Of a stretch of DNA of 20,952 nt, positions 1,403 to 20,041 are shown one piece after another. The position numbers and the translations under genes were made by a program. Source of the stretch: a virus; IMG/VR virus record IMGVR_UViG_3300012985_000031, positions 1 to 20,952 of that record; one strand, given 5' to 3'. The notes beneath the pieces were generated by a model. The model was not told the origin of the DNA. It worked only from the letters and a program-made list of their open reading frames with translations, and did not search any database. Numbering within the stretch: position 1 is the stretch's first letter; each line of letters opens with the position of its first letter.

Positions 1403-2089
1403 ATGTCCAACATCACCATCACTCCCGTCGATCTTGGCTCCGTCATCTACGGCGATTCACTCCACGAGGACGACACCCTCACCTTCTCGGGCGCTGACTC
1501 CTACGTGGAAGGCACCCTGCTTGCTCGCCGGAAGACATCCGCCGACTCGTACGCTGGTGTCATTGTCGGCACGGGCGCCAAGACCATCGCTTTGACGGCC
1601 CTGTCCGGGAAGTCGATGAAAGTCGGTGCCTACGTCCTGACCGTCGGCAACGTCACCGCAGGCGTCGGCCCGGCCACCATGGTGGACCCGGACGGCATCT
1701 CGGCATCTGTGACGCTGGCGACATCTGGCGCCCACAACATCCCGAGCCTCGGAGTCACCTTCGCCATCACGGCAGGCGGCACCGAACTCGACGACAACGC
1801 TACGGTGACCTTCACGGTGGCCGCTGGCGGCAAGCTCGTTGCCTTCGACCCCGCGGGCGAGAACGGCGTCAACGTACCCACCTCAGTGCTGACCTACCCG
1901 GTCACGGCTTCGGGTTCTGGCGACGTTCCGATCCGCGCCCTCGTCTCGGGCAAGGTCCGCAAGCAGCGCCTGATCATCGACGCCGATGGCGACGGCGACA
2001 ACATCACCGCAGCCCACATCGAGGCCCTCCGTGAGGTCGGCATCTACGCTCTGTCGGTGAAGGACCTTTCGGTTCTCGACAACCAGTAA
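1403..2089 (+). CDS. Capsid decoration protein (lambda gpD-like) with inserted beta module
   Basis: 228 residues. It is predicted to bind the outer capsid surface and stabilise the expanded head. ATG 1403 follows GGAGG at 1387-1391. Both flanks look like the HDPD/gpD family: an N-terminal arm (GDSLHEDDTLTFSGADSYVEGTLLARR would be the first strand region; about residues 18-43) and a C-terminal part from GKLVAFDP (143-150) to the end, comparable with lambda gpD KLVAWDG. Between them lies an extra domain of about 66 residues (74-139), with AYVLTVGN, MVDPDGIS and FAITAGGTELDD. This makes the protein about twice the length of lambda gpD (110 residues). The same module occurs in the tail sheath gene downstream. 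The next gene encodes the major capsid protein, as in lambda. Confidence 0.85.
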   Translation: MSNITITPVDLGSVIYGDSLHEDDTLTFSGADSYVEGTLLARRKTSADSYAGVIVGTGAKTIALTALSGKSMKVGAYVLTVGNVTAGVGPATMVDPDGISASVTLATSGAHNIPSLGVTFAITAGGTELDDNATVTFTVAAGGKLVAFDPAGENGVNVPTSVLTYPVTASGSGDVPIRALVSGKVRKQRLIIDADGDGDNITAAHIEALREVGIYALSVKDLSVLDNQ

Positions 2090-2095
2090 CACTCC

Positions 2096-2140
2096 GGGGC
2101 GGCCTTCCTCCTTAGGTGACTCTCTCGGGAGGGCCGCCCC
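2096..2140 (+). terminator. Strong hairpin between decoration and capsid genes
   Basis: GGGGCGGCC (2096-2104) pairs perfectly with GGCCGCCCC (2132-2140). The stem can extend inward by five more pairs, two of them G-U, to 2109/2127. It starts 6 bases after the decoration stop. No run of T follows (CTTCAATC), so it is not a classic intrinsic terminator. It may be a weak terminator, an RNA-processing or stability element, or may set the decoration:capsid ratio. Confidence 0.55.
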
Positions 2141-2206
2141 CTTCAATCACATAGCGCTCTCCTTGTGAGCGCAGGCCAAAACTACCGAAGGCCACGCCAC
2201 CCCTGG

Positions 2207-2256
2207 GCACCTCGTTGTGCGGACCGGGGATGGGGACGTGCGTCTTCATTTCGGAG
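2207..2256 (+). promoter_or_regulatory. Leader of the major capsid gene, with Shine-Dalgarno
   Basis: Within the 177-base gap before the capsid gene, GGGCAC-ctcgtt-GTGC forms a small hairpin (2207-2210/2217-2220) containing TTGTGCGG, the same core seen before the tube gene. GGAG at 2253-2256 lies 10 bases before ATG 2267 and fixes that start. I see no AT-rich -10 box. The match to the other leaders is weaker than theirs to each other. Confidence 0.4.
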
Positions 2257-2266
2257 AAATCCAACA

Positions 2267-3352
2267 ATGTCTGACACGTCCACCAAGCGCATGCTTAACG
2301 CTTACCTGGAGCAAAGCGCCCAGAAGCCAGGCTTCTTCACCCAGTTCTTCCAGAGCCCGGAGCGGAACTTCTTCACCCAGGAGACGGTGGAGATCGACAT
2401 CCGTCGATCCGGCAATCAGATCGCGCCGGTCTTGACGACTCTCGGCGCAGACCTGCACCGTACCGAGAACCGCAAGTTCGTGAACAAGGAGTTCAAGCCG
2501 GCAGTCTACGGCGAGGAGTTCGGACTCGGTGTCAAAGACGCGATGAAGCGTCAGCTCGGCCAGGACCCCTTCCAGGACCTCGGCTACCTACGCGCCCTTC
2601 AAACGGCATTCACGGCCGAGATGACGGAGCGCGAGACCATGATTCGCGGTGGCATCGAGCTTCAAGCGAGCCAAGTCCTCAGGACCGGCACGCTCTCTCT
2701 TCCCGGCGTCACGGGCGCGACCGCGTTCACGCTGGATTACCAGCCGAAAAGCACGCATTTTCCCGGCGCAGAGACCGACTGGGACGAGTCCAACGTCACG
2801 ACTCGCGTGAAGGACGTGCGCTCGCTCTGCAACGTCATCTGGGAGGACGGAAACTACCGTCCGAAGTACCTGGTGTTCGGCGAGAAGGCCCTGATCTCCT
2901 GGCTGGCAGACACCGAGGTGAAGGAACAGATCCGTAAGGACGGCACGGGCGTGGGTGAGCAGGTGCCCCCGCAGCTCCGTGAAGGCGGCGTCTTCCACGG
3001 TCGCGTCTCCGTCGGCCAGTTTCAGCTGGAGATGTGGAGCGCACCCGGTATCTACAGCGCAATCTCCAACGGCGCATCCACCAAGTACCTTGGTGATTGG
3101 GAGGTCATGGTCGTCTCTGAGGGAGCCCGTCTCGACTTGGTGTTCGGCGACATCCCGATCCTCGCCGCTGATCCCCGTGTTTCCGCGCTCTCCTTGGGCC
3201 GGGTCAGCTCCTCGGGTGGTCGCATTGACTTGATCACCAACGCTTGGGTCACCCCCAACGGTCGCAACATCTTCGGCTCCGTCGAAGCTCGCCCGCTCTG
3301 CATCCCAACGGCCATCGACACATTCGGCACGCTGAACGCCAAGGTCTCGTGA
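2267..3352 (+). CDS. Major capsid protein (lambda gpE family)
   Basis: 361 residues, close to the 341 of lambda gpE. Family features in order: an N-terminal region ending SPERNFFTQETVEIDIR (about 25-41), corresponding to the FTTEKVYLSQI region of gpE; a glycine/arginine patch with NKEFKPAVYG (about 64-73); a long helical region with MTERETMIRGGIELQASQVL; and a C-terminal domain with strand-rich VGQFQLEMWSAPGIY and a closing ADPRVSALSLGRVS. It would form the icosahedral shell. The ATG at 2267 is chosen because it has GGAG at the right distance; an upstream in-frame GTG (2165) would add 34 residues of non-family sequence. Its place after the decoration gene and before short connector genes matches the lambda order D-E-FI-FII. 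Confidence 0.92.
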   Translation: MSDTSTKRMLNAYLEQSAQKPGFFTQFFQSPERNFFTQETVEIDIRRSGNQIAPVLTTLGADLHRTENRKFVNKEFKPAVYGEEFGLGVKDAMKRQLGQDPFQDLGYLRALQTAFTAEMTERETMIRGGIELQASQVLRTGTLSLPGVTGATAFTLDYQPKSTHFPGAETDWDESNVTTRVKDVRSLCNVIWEDGNYRPKYLVFGEKALISWLADTEVKEQIRKDGTGVGEQVPPQLREGGVFHGRVSVGQFQLEMWSAPGIYSAISNGASTKYLGDWEVMVVSEGARLDLVFGDIPILAADPRVSALSLGRVSSSGGRIDLITNAWVTPNGRNIFGSVEARPLCIPTAIDTFGTLNAKVS

Positions 3353-3354
3353 GC

Positions 3355-3648
3355 ATGAGCCGCAAGCGCAAGCAGCCCCAGCCGGAGTCACCGGACACCG
3401 ACATCGAGGGCCTATTGGCCCCTGATGCTCCCTCCGACGACTCCGAGCCCGAGCAGCCGAAGGCTCCTGAGTCCGCAAAGGCCGAGGCCCCAAAGCCCGA
3501 GACCTTCGTCGTCGCCAAGGGCCGGTCGGTCACCACGCGGGCACGGGGCATCGTCTCCTCTGGCCAGGCGGTCACGGCCCAGGACTTCGCCGGGGGCGAG
3601 GCCCGTCTCCAGGAGCTGGCTACGGCTGGCTACCTGACGGGCTCCTGA
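3355..3648 (+). CDS. Small capsid-proximal protein of unknown function (gpFI position)
   Basis: 97 residues, starting two bases after the capsid stop; an in-frame GTG at 3349 overlapping that stop is an alternative start. The N-terminal half is low-complexity and charged (KRKQPQPESPDTD, then many Pro/Glu/Ala), probably disordered. The last 45 residues look like a small folded domain: FVVAKGRSVTTRARGIVSSG followed by EARLQELATAGYL. Short genes of this layout are common after capsid genes and are usually annotated as hypothetical or head-tail connector accessory. Position equals that of lambda FI (DNA packaging aid), but I see no sequence evidence for that function. Confidence 0.7.
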   Translation: MSRKRKQPQPESPDTDIEGLLAPDAPSDDSEPEQPKAPESAKAEAPKPETFVVAKGRSVTTRARGIVSSGQAVTAQDFAGGEARLQELATAGYLTGS

Positions 3649-4038
3649 GTGGCTTCTCTCCTGGAGCAGGCCAAGGCCCTATCCCGCAGTGTCCTCAATG
3701 ACACGAGCGGCTTCGGTGTCCCTGTGACGGTCACGTCCCCGGACGGGATCTCCGCAGTGGTCCACGGCCTCTCCACGGACATCGGGCTCAGCATCGATCC
3801 CGATACTGGCCTGACGGTCTCTGGCCGCAAGGCTTCGGTTTCAGTGTCCATCGAGGACCTGACCGATGCCGGGCTCGAAGTCCCAGAGGCTGTTCCTGAC
3901 GAATCCGAGAAGCCCTGGCTTGTTCGGATTGCCAACGCTCAAGGGTCGCAGCTCATGAAGGTCGTGGACACGGTGCCTGACCTGACGTTGGGCGTCGTCA
4001 TCCTCCACCTAGGAAAGTACCGGACGGATCTCCCCTAG
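3649..4038 (+). CDS. Putative head-tail joining protein (gpFII-like position)
   Basis: 129 residues from a GTG that directly abuts the previous TGA in the same reading frame, so initiation probably depends on ribosomes finishing the gene before it; no good Shine-Dalgarno is seen. Content is mostly beta: VPVTVTSPDGISAVVHGL, DTGLTVSGRKASVSVSIEDL, then KPWLVRIANAQG and a closing PDLTLGVVILHLGKY. This pattern (random helix start, then strands, then a final short strand) fits small head-tail stopper proteins such as lambda gpFII and similar proteins in Mu-like prophages. The role in joining the filled head to the tail is inferred from fold pattern and gene order. Confidence 0.6.
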   Translation: MASLLEQAKALSRSVLNDTSGFGVPVTVTSPDGISAVVHGLSTDIGLSIDPDTGLTVSGRKASVSVSIEDLTDAGLEVPEAVPDESEKPWLVRIANAQGSQLMKVVDTVPDLTLGVVILHLGKYRTDLP

Positions 4039-4042
4039 TCTC

Positions 4043-4738
4043 ATGGCAGCTCGCATTCAGACCCTCATCGACAAGAGGGACAATCGAGAGCTGATTCGGG
4101 ACCAGATCGCGGCAATCCTGAAGGTCGAGTCCGACGAGCAGCAGAAGCTAGCTCGCTCCCAAGACAAGGACGCACGCCTCTGGGCGCTTCGGGTCTTCAC
4201 CGAGCGTGCCGATCCCTGGGCGGCCTTCGCAGACACAGAGCAGAAGAGAGTCCCGATCATCAGCGTACGAGCGGATACCTCAACGTTCGACAAGTCGGGC
4301 TCGGATCCAGTCCGACATCAGAAGGTCGAAACGACCTATCAGATCGTTTGCTTCGGCTTCGGAGTCGCCGAAGACACCGACGCAGGGCACACAGCGGCCG
4401 ACAAGATGGCCATCGTCGAAGCGGAACGAGCCGTCCGCTTCGTCCGAAACATCCTGATGGCAGGGCCCTACACCTACCTCGGGTTTCCGCAGGGAAAGTA
4501 CCTTCCCTCGGGTCAGGAGCAGGTCGTCTGGGGACGTTGGGTCTCCGGGATCGTCAGCTCCGAGCCCGACTCACCCAGCCGCCCCGTCGAGCGCGTCGCC
4601 GGCATCAGGCTCGACCTAGAGGTCACGCACTCTGAGTTCTCGCCTCAGTACGTCCCCACGACGCTCGACATTCTAGCGCTCACCCTGACGCGCACACCCG
4701 AAGGCGAGTGGCTCTCCGCTGAGTACGCCGCTCCCTAA
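4043..4738 (+). CDS. Tail completion / neck protein
   Basis: 231 residues, four bases after the previous stop; no strong Shine-Dalgarno, so coupling is likely. Features typical of a conserved neck/tail-terminator family found next to contractile sheath genes: an N-terminal helix (RIQTLIDKRDNRELIRDQI), a strand-rich part with VPIISVRADTSTFD, the motif QKVETTYQIVCFGFGVAED, a helix with AERAVRFVRNILMAGPYTYLG, and a late strand pair with VAGIRLDLEVTHSEFSPQY. Such proteins cap the tail tube and bridge to the connector. The next gene encodes the sheath, which supports this. Confidence 0.65.
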   Translation: MAARIQTLIDKRDNRELIRDQIAAILKVESDEQQKLARSQDKDARLWALRVFTERADPWAAFADTEQKRVPIISVRADTSTFDKSGSDPVRHQKVETTYQIVCFGFGVAEDTDAGHTAADKMAIVEAERAVRFVRNILMAGPYTYLGFPQGKYLPSGQEQVVWGRWVSGIVSSEPDSPSRPVERVAGIRLDLEVTHSEFSPQYVPTTLDILALTLTRTPEGEWLSAEYAAP

Positions 4739-4781
4739 CCACAACTAGCTCACGTCTCGGACCCCGCTGCCCTCGTTGGCT

Positions 4782-4815
4782 CTCGGGGCGGCCGAGCTTT
4801 GTCCGCATTCCGGAG
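4782..4815 (+). promoter_or_regulatory. Structured leader of the tail sheath gene
   Basis: CTCGG-GGCGG-CCGAG (4782-4796) is a perfect 5-bp hairpin, followed by GCTTTGTCCGC and then GGAG (4812-4815), 7 bases before ATG 4823. GGGGCGGCCGAGCTTTGTCC (4785-4804) aligns without gaps to the leader of the tube gene and closely to that of the gene at 17660. An alternative longer pairing, CGGAC (4758-4762) with GTCCG (4801-4805), would enclose it. A promoter cannot be made out. Confidence 0.5.
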
Positions 4816-4822
4816 ATTCCCC

Positions 4823-6595
4823 ATGGTTCTCGACGCATCCCTAGAAGCCCGCCAGATCGGCGTAGAAGCCACCTACAAGGACGCCCGCACTGGTGCGTTT
4901 CGACGCCTCCCCCAGCGGGTCTACCTAATTGCCTCGGGAGAAAACGGCGCCAGCTTCACGACGACCAAGTTCGTGGCGCAGTCCGCTGGGCACGTGGGCC
5001 AGATCGCTGGCTACCACAGCCAGGCCTACCAGATGGCCCGTCAGCTGTTGCCGAAGAACGGGGACGGCCTCGGCACGGTGCCTCTCACGGTCTGCCTTCT
5101 GGAGGACGCTGATGGTGCTGCCGCTGCCGCAGGCGACATCACTCCCTCAGGCACCGCAACCCGTGCGGCCCAGTACAGGGTCAACGTTTCCGAGGTCCTC
5201 TCCTCGGCCTTCGTGGTTCCGGCTGGTGCCGTCAACGTCACCAACGTTTGCCGCTCGATGCACGACGCAGTGAATGGCACCCTCGGGATGCCCGTCGTCG
5301 CAACGTACACCTACACGACGGTCACGGCTTCGTGGACCCGTGCTGCTGGTACGCCTTCGAACGGCACCATCGGCACCTTCGTCACGACCGGCCAGCCCAA
5401 GCCAGGCGTTTGGACCCTGGAATGCACGGCCGAAGCTAGCAACGCTGGCACGTTCAAGCTCGTCGATCCCGACGGCATCGAAGTAGCCGACGACATCACG
5501 ACGGGCGCTCAGACCGTGGCCGGCCTCGGCTTCACCTTGAGCGATGGTTCAGAAGACTTCAACACCGGAGACGTTGCTCAGATCACAGTCCCTACCACCA
5601 AGGTCAACCTGACCGCTGGTTGGAAGGGCACCACGGGCAACGACCTGACGGTTCGCATTGACGGCCCCGAGCTGAGTGCCGGCGTCGAGTTTGCCTATAC
5701 CCAGTTCACCGGCGGCTTGGTGGACCCGGATCCCTCGCCTGCTTTGGAGCAGATCGGCCAGACCTGGCAGACGATGCTGCTCAACGGCTTGAACATCGAG
5801 AACACCACGGCGCTCGACGCCTACCAAGAGTGGGGCGAAGGACGCTGGGCCTCGACCGTGAAGAAGCCCGCTCTGGTCTTCACCGGAGCAGCCGTCACGA
5901 CCCCGTCCTCGGCCATCGTCATCCCCGACGCTCGCAGGGCGGACAGAATCAACGTTCAGCTCGTGGCTCCAGGGAGCCGAAACCTCCCTTGCGTCATCGC
6001 TGCCCGCCAGCTCGCCAGGATCGCTCGCCTCGCATCGAACGTTCCGTCCCACGACTACTGCCTCCAGTCGGCCGATGGGATCGTACCCGGCGCGGATTCT
6101 CTTCAGTGGGATCTTCTAGGCCGCGACACCGCCCTCAAGGGCGGCTCGTCCACCGTCGAGGTCATCGATTCGGTCATCAAGATCTCGAACGTCGTCACGA
6201 TGTACCACCCGACGGGCGAAGAGCCCCCGGCCTACCGATACGTCGTCGATGTCGTGAAGCTCCAGAACGTCGTCTGGAACGTGGACCTCATCTTCAGCCA
6301 GCCTGGCTGGGCTGGTGCTTCGCTGGTCCCTGACGAGCAGCCGATCACCGAGGCCACGGCCAAGAAGCCCAAGATGGCTGTCAGCGAAATGGCCGCCTTG
6401 CTCGATAACCTCGGGCTCGCCGCGATCATCTCGGACCCTGCCACGAGCAAGGCCGGGATCACGGCGACTATCGATTCTCAGAACCCGAAGCGCCTCAACG
6501 TGAGGGCTCCAATCAAGCTCTCGGGCAACACGAACATCGTGGATGCAGTCGTCGAGTGGAGCTTCTTCTTCGGCAGCGCACCGCTCGTCGCGTAA
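4823..6595 (+). CDS. Contractile tail sheath protein (Mu gpL-like) with inserted beta module
   Basis: 590 residues. It forms the outer contractile tube that drives the inner tube into the host. The N-terminal part (1-100) has a typical sheath opening with GVEATYKDARTGAFRRLP and RVYLIASG. The C-terminal core (about 310-590) carries ALDAYQEWGEGRW, VVTMYHPTGEEPP, a VDVVKLQNVVWN helix, SQPGWAGASLVPDE and a last strand region VVEWSFFFGSAPLVA, all usual for Phage_sheath proteins. Residues 191-257 (GVWTLECTA, KLVDPDGIE, FTLSDGSEDF) form an extra module like the one in the decoration protein, which explains the length above the roughly 500 residues of Mu gpL. ATG 4823 is preferred over an upstream TTG (4799), because GGAG lies 7 bases before the ATG. 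Confidence 0.93.
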   Translation: MVLDASLEARQIGVEATYKDARTGAFRRLPQRVYLIASGENGASFTTTKFVAQSAGHVGQIAGYHSQAYQMARQLLPKNGDGLGTVPLTVCLLEDADGAAAAAGDITPSGTATRAAQYRVNVSEVLSSAFVVPAGAVNVTNVCRSMHDAVNGTLGMPVVATYTYTTVTASWTRAAGTPSNGTIGTFVTTGQPKPGVWTLECTAEASNAGTFKLVDPDGIEVADDITTGAQTVAGLGFTLSDGSEDFNTGDVAQITVPTTKVNLTAGWKGTTGNDLTVRIDGPELSAGVEFAYTQFTGGLVDPDPSPALEQIGQTWQTMLLNGLNIENTTALDAYQEWGEGRWASTVKKPALVFTGAAVTTPSSAIVIPDARRADRINVQLVAPGSRNLPCVIAARQLARIARLASNVPSHDYCLQSADGIVPGADSLQWDLLGRDTALKGGSSTVEVIDSVIKISNVVTMYHPTGEEPPAYRYVVDVVKLQNVVWNVDLIFSQPGWAGASLVPDEQPITEATAKKPKMAVSEMAALLDNLGLAAIISDPATSKAGITATIDSQNPKRLNVRAPIKLSGNTNIVDAVVEWSFFFGSAPLVA

Positions 6596-18100: not shown

Positions 18101-20041
18101 GTGACTCTACCGCAATACAGCTCGCTCGATCACTGGTACGGATCGAGGGCAGACCGGCAGGTCAGTGCGCTCTCGACTCGGATCGATGACTGCTCAGGCA
18201 AGGGGAAGCATGGCTCTCGTATCGGTACGACGATCAGCGTCGTCGCCGGGTGGTACAATCTCGGGGAACAGGCCGGCGGCAATAGCCACGGCATTCAGCC
18301 ACCCACGCTCTCGCTCGCGGGTGGGGGCAGCTACTCATGGTGTGCGCGCGTGCGCCGGTCCACGTCGTCGAACTGGGGCGACCACTACCACGTGGTCCAG
18401 GGCGCCACGGGCACAAGCGCAGCCCTCAACTGCCTCACCTTTTGGAACCTCGACCATCCGGGCAGCGTCTTCACGACCGCCCACAACGGAGGGGCGTCGG
18501 GCAGTGACTGGACGATATTTACCGGTGGAGCGTGGCAATACTCACCGAGTGCTTGGGTGGTCGATGCCTCGCACACGATGGTGTGCACCTACAACGCATC
18601 ATCGACGACGATGCGCACCTACGTCGATGGTGTGCTCGCGTGGACTCAGACCGGCGTCCCCGCAAACACGGGCGCGGGGAACCTGGCTTGGTTCGCCTGG
18701 GACGGTTTTGGTGGTCAAAGCTGGGGTCACGAGAGCGACAGCGTCCTTTTCTGGCCCGGCGTTGTCCTCACCGACGGCAGCGTATCCAACGGCGCTACAG
18801 CAGGCGGCGAGGTCGCCCAGGCCCTGGCCTATCTGGACGTCGCGGTCTCCTCTGTCACGCCCAGCGACAACGCTACCGGCATTTCGACGACGGACGACCT
18901 CGTCCTCACCTGCAACGTTGCTCCGACGCTCGGGTCGGGCAACCTCTACGTCAAACGAACGTCGGACAACTCGACGTTTCAGACGATTGCGACAGCAGCT
19001 TGCTCGGTCTCAGGGTCCACGGTCGTGGTCCCACATTCCACGTTCGCCGGAAGCACCGGCTATTACGTCACGTGGGACGCCTACTTCATCGCAGGCGTTG
19101 GGGCGCAGGCCAGCACGACGGCCTGGAACTTCACCACGGTCAGCAGTGGCACGACCCAGGACCTTGGTGGTACCGCGGCCGGGACTGCCGCCGGCTCCGG
19201 CAACCTATCTGATGCGGTCCCCCTCGCAGGAAGCGCATCTGGCTCGGCATCTGGGTCTGGCGCCCTTGCGGACGCAGTCACGCTTGGAGGCACAGCCGCT
19301 GGCCTTGCTGGTGGCTCCGGCGACCTAGCCGACAGCGTCCCTCTCGGTGGCACCAGCGTCGGCCTAAGTGGCGGTTCCGGTGTCCTCTCCGATGCGGCTC
19401 CGCTTGGAGGCACGTCGGCCGGTAGCGCGGGAGGCTCTGGAGCCCTCGACGATGCGGTTCAGCTTGGTGGCACGGCCACTGGCTCCGCTGGTGGTGCTGG
19501 CACCCTTGCCGACGCCGCGGGCCTTGGTGGCACCTCTGCTGGTTCTAGTGACGGCTCCGGCTCCCTTGCTGACTCCGCACATCTCGCCGGAACGGCCGCA
19601 GGTAGCGGCGGCGGCTCCGGCGTCCTCTCCGATGTTGTCCCCCTCGGCGGCCAAGCGGATGGTTCGGCCGGAGGCTCCGGCTCGCTCTCGACGAGCGGCG
19701 ACATCGAACTCGGAGGCCTTGCCGCCGGCACTGGTGGTGGCTCTGGGACGCTCAGCGACGCGGCCGCACTCGATGGCACGGCTGCCGGTGTCGGTGGAGC
19801 AGCAGGCTCCCTAGGCCTCGGGAAGGGCCTCGGGGGCACGGCCCAGGGGCAAGCCGGAGGCGAAGCTGATCTCTCGGATGCCGTCTCGCTTGGGGGCGTG
19901 GCCGCAGGTCTGGCCGACGGAACCGCACACCTCTTCGAGGAAGGGACCGCGATTGTCCACCTCACGGTAGCTCACATCCCTGGCCGTCGCCTCTCCACCT
20001 CTCACACCCCGGGTTTCCACTTAACGACTCGCCATGGCTGA
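18101..20041 (+). CDS. LamG/Ig-like adhesin with 13 Gly-rich repeats
   Basis: 646 residues from GTG 18101, the first start after an in-frame TGA (18095-18097). Residues 1-235 look like a LamG/concanavalin-type jelly roll: YSWCARVRRSTSSNWGDHYH, SHTMVCTYNASSTTMRTYVD and GVLAWTQTG (the usual TxxVYVDGxLxxS pattern of such domains). About 248-348 form an Ig-like (SbsA-type) domain, opening SSVTPSDNATGISTTDDLVL and closing YYVTWDAYFI / TTAWNFTTV. Residues 355-616 are 13 units of 20 residues (L-GGTAAG-SAGGSG-LSDAVP type). A basic, His/Thr-rich end (LTVAHIPGRRLSTSHTPGFH) follows. It probably binds cell-surface sugars as an appendage. Close position after the tailspike and Gp80-like genes supports this. 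Function beyond adhesion is unknown. Confidence 0.75.
   Translation: MTLPQYSSLDHWYGSRADRQVSALSTRIDDCSGKGKHGSRIGTTISVVAGWYNLGEQAGGNSHGIQPPTLSLAGGGSYSWCARVRRSTSSNWGDHYHVVQGATGTSAALNCLTFWNLDHPGSVFTTAHNGGASGSDWTIFTGGAWQYSPSAWVVDASHTMVCTYNASSTTMRTYVDGVLAWTQTGVPANTGAGNLAWFAWDGFGGQSWGHESDSVLFWPGVVLTDGSVSNGATAGGEVAQALAYLDVAVSSVTPSDNATGISTTDDLVLTCNVAPTLGSGNLYVKRTSDNSTFQTIATAACSVSGSTVVVPHSTFAGSTGYYVTWDAYFIAGVGAQASTTAWNFTTVSSGTTQDLGGTAAGTAAGSGNLSDAVPLAGSASGSASGSGALADAVTLGGTAAGLAGGSGDLADSVPLGGTSVGLSGGSGVLSDAAPLGGTSAGSAGGSGALDDAVQLGGTATGSAGGAGTLADAAGLGGTSAGSSDGSGSLADSAHLAGTAAGSGGGSGVLSDVVPLGGQADGSAGGSGSLSTSGDIELGGLAAGTGGGSGTLSDAAALDGTAAGVGGAAGSLGLGKGLGGTAQGQAGGEADLSDAVSLGGVAAGLADGTAHLFEEGTAIVHLTVAHIPGRRLSTSHTPGFHLTTRHG
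19163..19948 (+). repeat. Thirteen tandem 60-base (20-residue) repeats
   Basis: Units start with CTT or CTC (Leu) at 19163, 19223, 19283, 19343, 19403, 19463, 19523, 19583, 19643, 19709, 19769, 19829 and 19889. All are 60 bases except the ninth, which is 66. Consensus: L-G-G-T-x-A/S-x-G-x-x-G-G-S-G-x-L-x-D-x-x. DNA copies differ at many third positions, so the repeat is old or under protein-level selection rather than a recent expansion. The last three units are more divergent. Confidence 0.9.

Follow-up and report, generated by a model that had tools for sequence, protein, structure and literature searches.

An all-beta module carried by the head decoration protein and the tail sheath of one myophage is very probably a portable insert of tailed phage virion proteins

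The sequence analysed here, called the window throughout, is a 20,952-base viral contig holding a myophage late operon. Its genes are arranged in the order protease, decoration protein, major head protein, head closure, probable tail terminator, sheath, tube, tape measure and baseplate. The relevant genes and features of the window are as follows.

230-1399: maturation protease (phrog_53)
1403..2089, + strand: head decoration protein of the lambda gpD family, 228 aa (PF02924, phrog_49)
1532..1828, + strand: decoration insert of ~99 aa, residues 44-142, missing from relatives of ~130 aa
1622-1819, + strand: decoration module core, residues 74-139, inside the 1532-1828 insert
2165-3352: major head protein (phrog_29)
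3649-4038: head closure protein (phrog_4598)
4043..4738, + strand: probable tail terminator (phrog_4671), without the module in the window
4823..6595, + strand: Mu-type contractile tail sheath protein, 590 aa from the ATG (phrog_165)
5303..5593, + strand: sheath insert of ~97 aa, residues 169-265 counted from the TTG, missing from Mu and most relatives
5393-5593, + strand: most conserved part of the sheath module, residues 199-265 from the TTG and 191-257 from the ATG

The decoration protein scored 33.9 bits against PF02924 (cut-off 29.1), with its best stretch at residues 23-214, insert included, and the window also has the gene order of this family, namely protease, decoration protein and major head protein. 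Decoration proteins of the gpD type are cement proteins. The sheath matched phrog_165 at E=1.3e-75, and by profile it matched the phage Mu sheath over nearly the full length (E=2.3e-29); the top Foldseek match of its model was also the Mu sheath (9ki1, E=3e-27). Two in-frame starts are present in the sheath gene, a TTG at 4799 and an ATG at 4823, and comparison with relatives suggests that the ATG is the true start. Further downstream, positions 18101-20041 encode a 646-aa protein in which a Big_5 Ig-like domain precedes ~270 residues of imperfect LGGTAAGSAGGSGxLxDA repeats, and 17627-18049 matches Pfam Gp80, a podophage fibre protein, though the region is a myophage tail.

Comparison with relatives delimited the two segments, both of which we judge to be true insertions in their host proteins. 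In decoration proteins of ~130 aa, GTLLAR runs nearly straight into KLV, and the window protein has ~99 extra residues at this place. Related sheaths are ~500 aa long (495 in phage Mu), and in the great majority of them, as in Mu, only a short hairpin stands where the window sheath has its 97 extra residues. The insert is not an ordinary sheath domain, because phage Mu and most close relatives lack it; the objection foreseen when the segments were first noticed, that it might belong to all Mu-like sheaths, thus fails. The sequence-only reading had placed the segments at 1622-1819 and 5393-5593, and both were located exactly there; the cores were given correctly, and it is the extents that need revision, the real inserts being larger at ~99 and 97 aa. 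The insertion hairpin is identical in position among the other module-bearing Mu-type sheaths. The start of the L130 sheath module differs and is decoration-like, and this copy may be a separate insertion. A 649-aa Mu-type sheath ORF (L140:7542-9488, on a contig shared with L207) exceeds the module-bearing sheaths in length and gave no match to the module; its additional residues may come from another kind of insert or from an unrelated extension.

We assessed the relationship between the two modules by direct alignment and by profiles. The direct alignment is modest, with 30% identity over 67 residues. Smith-Waterman alignment of decoration residues 74-139 with a 67-residue sheath slice (residues 191-257 counted from the TTG) scored 63, and none of 2000 shuffles reached this value (mean 28, SD 5.4). 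Inside the window, the best match of either module beyond its own protein was the other host protein. The window decoration module as a lone query retrieved the sheath at E=2.7e-4; used alone against phage records, it returned no match. A held-out profile built without any sheath and without any window row matched the window sheath at E=3.1e-20, and a held-out profile lacking the window decoration module matched that module at E=2.9e-8. The proposal that the modules align with each other was borne out by these results, and both segments match one common family, as a profile search had been expected to reveal.

The profiles also separated two subtypes, which are bridged by intermediate sequences. 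Against a profile built from sheaths alone, the window decoration module scored weakly (E=0.039), because it represents a divergent subtype. Another profile started from the decoration modules of Pseudomonas phage Lodos, cyanophage Cy-LDV1 and a plasmid-borne element of Mesorhizobium, with no sheath among its seeds, and was iterated without the window, L014 and L015. Its matches included the sheaths of the window (E=2.6e-17) and of L014 (1.2e-21); the window decoration copy was not detected by it alone (E=0.2), and its orthologues were found in L015 (4e-5) and L014 (4e-4). Motif positions of the family, such as PDG, SDG and a GD close to the module end, are all present in the window sheath copy; the window decoration copy keeps PDG and is missing the GD near the end. 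For contig scans, an eight-row alignment covering both subtypes was too divergent, and a four-row set worked. On this evidence we consider the decoration and sheath segments homologous. The protein at 3649-4038 was also tried as a module carrier and rejected: its resemblance to the decoration module (score 58) was put down to chance, since the profiles miss it and it is the head closure protein.

We then examined the predicted structures. AlphaFold2 gave a mean pLDDT of 91.7 and a pTM of 0.82 for the decoration protein, and 89.0 and 0.86 for the sheath. Modelled strands of the decoration insert lie at residues 62-66, 75-81, 88-94, 100-105, 109-113, 118-122 and 134-139, and those of the sheath insert at 190-196, 203-213, 216-222, 228-233, 236-240, 243-248 and 259-264. 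Both cores, by the secondary structure of these models, have seven strands in identical order, in agreement with the earlier expectation that the two would be predicted as the same all-beta unit. Foldseek with the decoration model found no match at E<=0.001 in the PDB; in BFVD it found two matches at E<=0.001 without an informative name, followed by short head decoration proteins. A PDB profile search with the module gave nothing significant, the best hit being the decoration protein 5lxk (E=0.46). In the sheath of Agrobacterium phage 7-7-1, the counterpart of the insertion hairpin by alignment is at about residues 145-157. The sheath of the related phage Milano has an external extension domain spanning residues 91-203 (PMC10811340), and domain III of the phage Mu sheath extends outward (PMC11915804). 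Because homologous solved sheaths place this region externally, we infer with good support that the module would be displayed outward on the virion surface.

The module was also found in other virion proteins, of which three are listed here.

L183, 8748-9797: probable tail terminator (phrog_4671) with the module near its N-terminus
L185, 3975-5087: probable tail terminator (phrog_4671) with the module near its N-terminus
L198, 4053-5369: decoration protein of 439 aa with apparently nested modules

The L183 and L185 phages carry three modules each, in the decoration protein, the terminator and the sheath, and in both the terminator gene adjoins the sheath on the upstream side. A phrog_4671 homologue is annotated as tail terminator in phage AeroV_348. 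The phrog_687 structural protein of Ab19-like phages carries the module as well. In a Hyphomicrobium prophage, two proteins bear the module, namely a gpD-type decoration protein and a sheath from a different family (phrog_23, PF04984); this P2-type sheath lies 13 kb downstream of the decoration protein in apparently one collinear gene run, and the prophage is a second, unrelated instance of the module on head and tail. In the same sheath (L065:5311-7137), the module seems to sit inside another, repeat-like insert, whose sequence matches portions of several large virion protein families. The decoration proteins of L055 and L069 each have two modules in tandem. L198, a single metagenomic contig, shows three module first halves at 141-nt spacing, the last of them part of a complete module, and after it two additional second halves; this pattern reads as a module nested in a module nested in a module.

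To describe how the copies are related, we compared identities and built a module tree based on ~70 columns. For the window sheath module, identity was 72% to the L014 sheath copy, 57% to the L094 decoration copy and 30% to the decoration copy of the same phage. By this measure its nearer kin are decoration modules from sibling phages, the one in its own phage being more distant, and the two window copies are classed as different subtypes. Likewise, in the Hyphomicrobium prophage the P2-type sheath module shares 67% identity with a Devosia decoration module, with which it groups in the tree (support 99/90), and 47% with the decoration module of the prophage itself. Terminator modules group with decoration modules (support 100/93). 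In the best tree the two window copies fall in different supported groups, and forcing them together as sisters was not rejected with these ~70 columns (AU p=0.46).

The distribution of the module was assessed by pooling two IMG/VR scans with earlier loci, the decoration state being judged by length. Among contigs with both genes, the module was in both proteins in 8, in the sheath only in 1, in the decoration protein only in 18 and in neither in 69; in 3 further contigs the sheath had the module and a decoration gene was not visible. A module-bearing sheath was thus paired with a module-bearing decoration protein in 8 of the 9 contigs having both genes (Fisher p=9e-5, kinship ignored). Parsimony on the sheath tree requires at least 4 changes of the sheath state and at least 11 of the decoration state, with too few independent pairs for a test of correlation, and the co-occurrence on head and tail is confounded by kinship. 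In proteobacterial genomes the module is uncommon (8/385 and 4/369 sampled, counts that include the starting genomes of the search), and most copies found belong to the gpD decoration family (PF02924, phrog_49).

Taken together, the two segments are very probably copies of one portable all-beta module of ~75-95 aa that is inserted in loops of virion proteins across tailed phages and borne by head and tail. The comparisons above demonstrated the basis for this: homology, presence and absence, insertion sites, several host families, and tandem and nested copies. The original suggestion of one movable module in two unrelated virion coat proteins is upheld by the common family, the same strand order and the absence of the insert from most relatives. 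In the window, the decoration copy lies in the loop where gpD-type proteins usually receive the insert, and the sheath copy lies in a hairpin belonging to the outer extension domain of its Mu-type host; many copies of the module would thus be present on each virion, on head and tail alike. The module would have spread by recombination, both between phages and within phages.

Two alternatives concern the origin of the resemblance. Unrelated beta segments might look alike through their beta-rich composition, as the direct identity of just 30% would allow; the held-out profiles (E=3e-20 and 3e-8), the shuffle control, the intermediates that bridge both subtypes and the identical strand order make such convergence extremely improbable. 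The sheath module might also have been duplicated straight from the decoration gene of this one phage. The two genes are less than 4 kb apart, the sheath module is nearly always accompanied by a decoration module, and the joint clade is not rejected. This direct route is nevertheless quite unlikely, given an identity of 30% to the phage's own decoration module against 57% to that of L094, and the placement of the two copies in different supported groups of the best tree.

Other alternatives concern what the portable module does. It is a virion accessory outside the assembly core, because most relatives lack it, it lies in loops and its copy number changes. Most likely it would serve as a non-essential surface domain through which the virion makes weak contact with polymers of the cell surface or with its surroundings. 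Adhesion as such is the leading, though tentative, candidate; PMC9230969, citing Fraser et al. 2006, gives weak adhesion as the customary explanation of such beta domains. Host or mucus binding and surface masking, the functions suggested in the sequence-only reading, are speculative candidates. It is possible, though somewhat doubtful, that this unnamed mobile domain is a self-spreading insert, which enters loops of many virion surface proteins (the decoration protein, two sheath families, the tail terminator and the phrog_687 protein) and of itself, so that a single virion would bear one module on head, neck and tail. That it would be a near-neutral passenger, a self-folding domain that loops tolerate and that recombination spreads for little gain, the protein counterpart of a selfish insert, agrees with the nested and tandem copies, the several unrelated hosts and a patchy presence with at least 11 changes of decoration state. 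We regard it as unlikely, since open frames and a conserved motif set persist over great divergence, which suggests selection on the fold, and the insertion site is constant across diverged sheaths. A structural brace, stabilising the head lattice and the sheath through neighbouring subunits and binding nothing outside the virion, would suit the cement function of gpD-type decoration proteins. Extra sheath domains have likewise been proposed as stabilisers of the sheath disk (PMC9230969). However, one domain would then have to brace unrelated lattices, namely the capsid, Mu-type and P2-type sheaths and the terminator ring, and assembly proceeds without it in most close relatives; bracing is therefore also improbable.

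Promiscuous beta domains on phage surfaces, exchanged among phage proteins, are already known. Ig-like domains in phage structural proteins were described by Fraser et al. 2006 (as cited in PMC9230969), and the Big_2, I-set and fn3 types by Fraser et al. 2007 (as cited in PMC4332376). Like these, going by such citations, the present module is a small all-beta accessory domain swapped among unrelated virion proteins, and phage Ig-like domains are thought, in the same cited work, to bind cell-surface carbohydrate weakly. Unlike them, it falls below the Ig cut-offs of Pfam, its decoration model has no significant fold match in the PDB, and it is inserted in internal loops, even within itself (L198). 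None of the Ig-like families Big, FlgD_ig, I-set and fn3 reached its Pfam curated cut-off with the module; the best scores were FlgD_ig (E=0.0038, in 2/20 members) and Big_8 (0.043), with none for the window copies. The module resembles the extra domains of phage tail sheaths (PMC9230969) in being beta-rich and attached to the sheath core at a distance from the tube; the survey in question considers sheath domains by themselves, whereas the present family occurs also in a head decoration protein and a probable tail terminator. Within the lambda gpD family (PF02924, phrog_49), to which the window protein belongs, the module is an extra that members of ~130 aa lack. The phage Mu sheath gp39 (PMC11915804; 9khy, 9ki1) shares its core with the window sheath over nearly the full length, with a short hairpin at the position of the module. 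No family in Pfam, PHROG or NCBIfam covers the module, and a literature search taking in few subscription journals returned no paper on exactly this module. What is new is that head, sheath and terminator share one definable, uncatalogued domain, together with its nesting.

These findings point to a contractile-sheath loop in which an additional domain is tolerated. The pairing of head and sheath copies recurs in an unrelated lineage, which suggests that a property of the virion surface as a whole is under selection, and phages differing in the number and place of their modules form a concrete set in which such a property may be tested.
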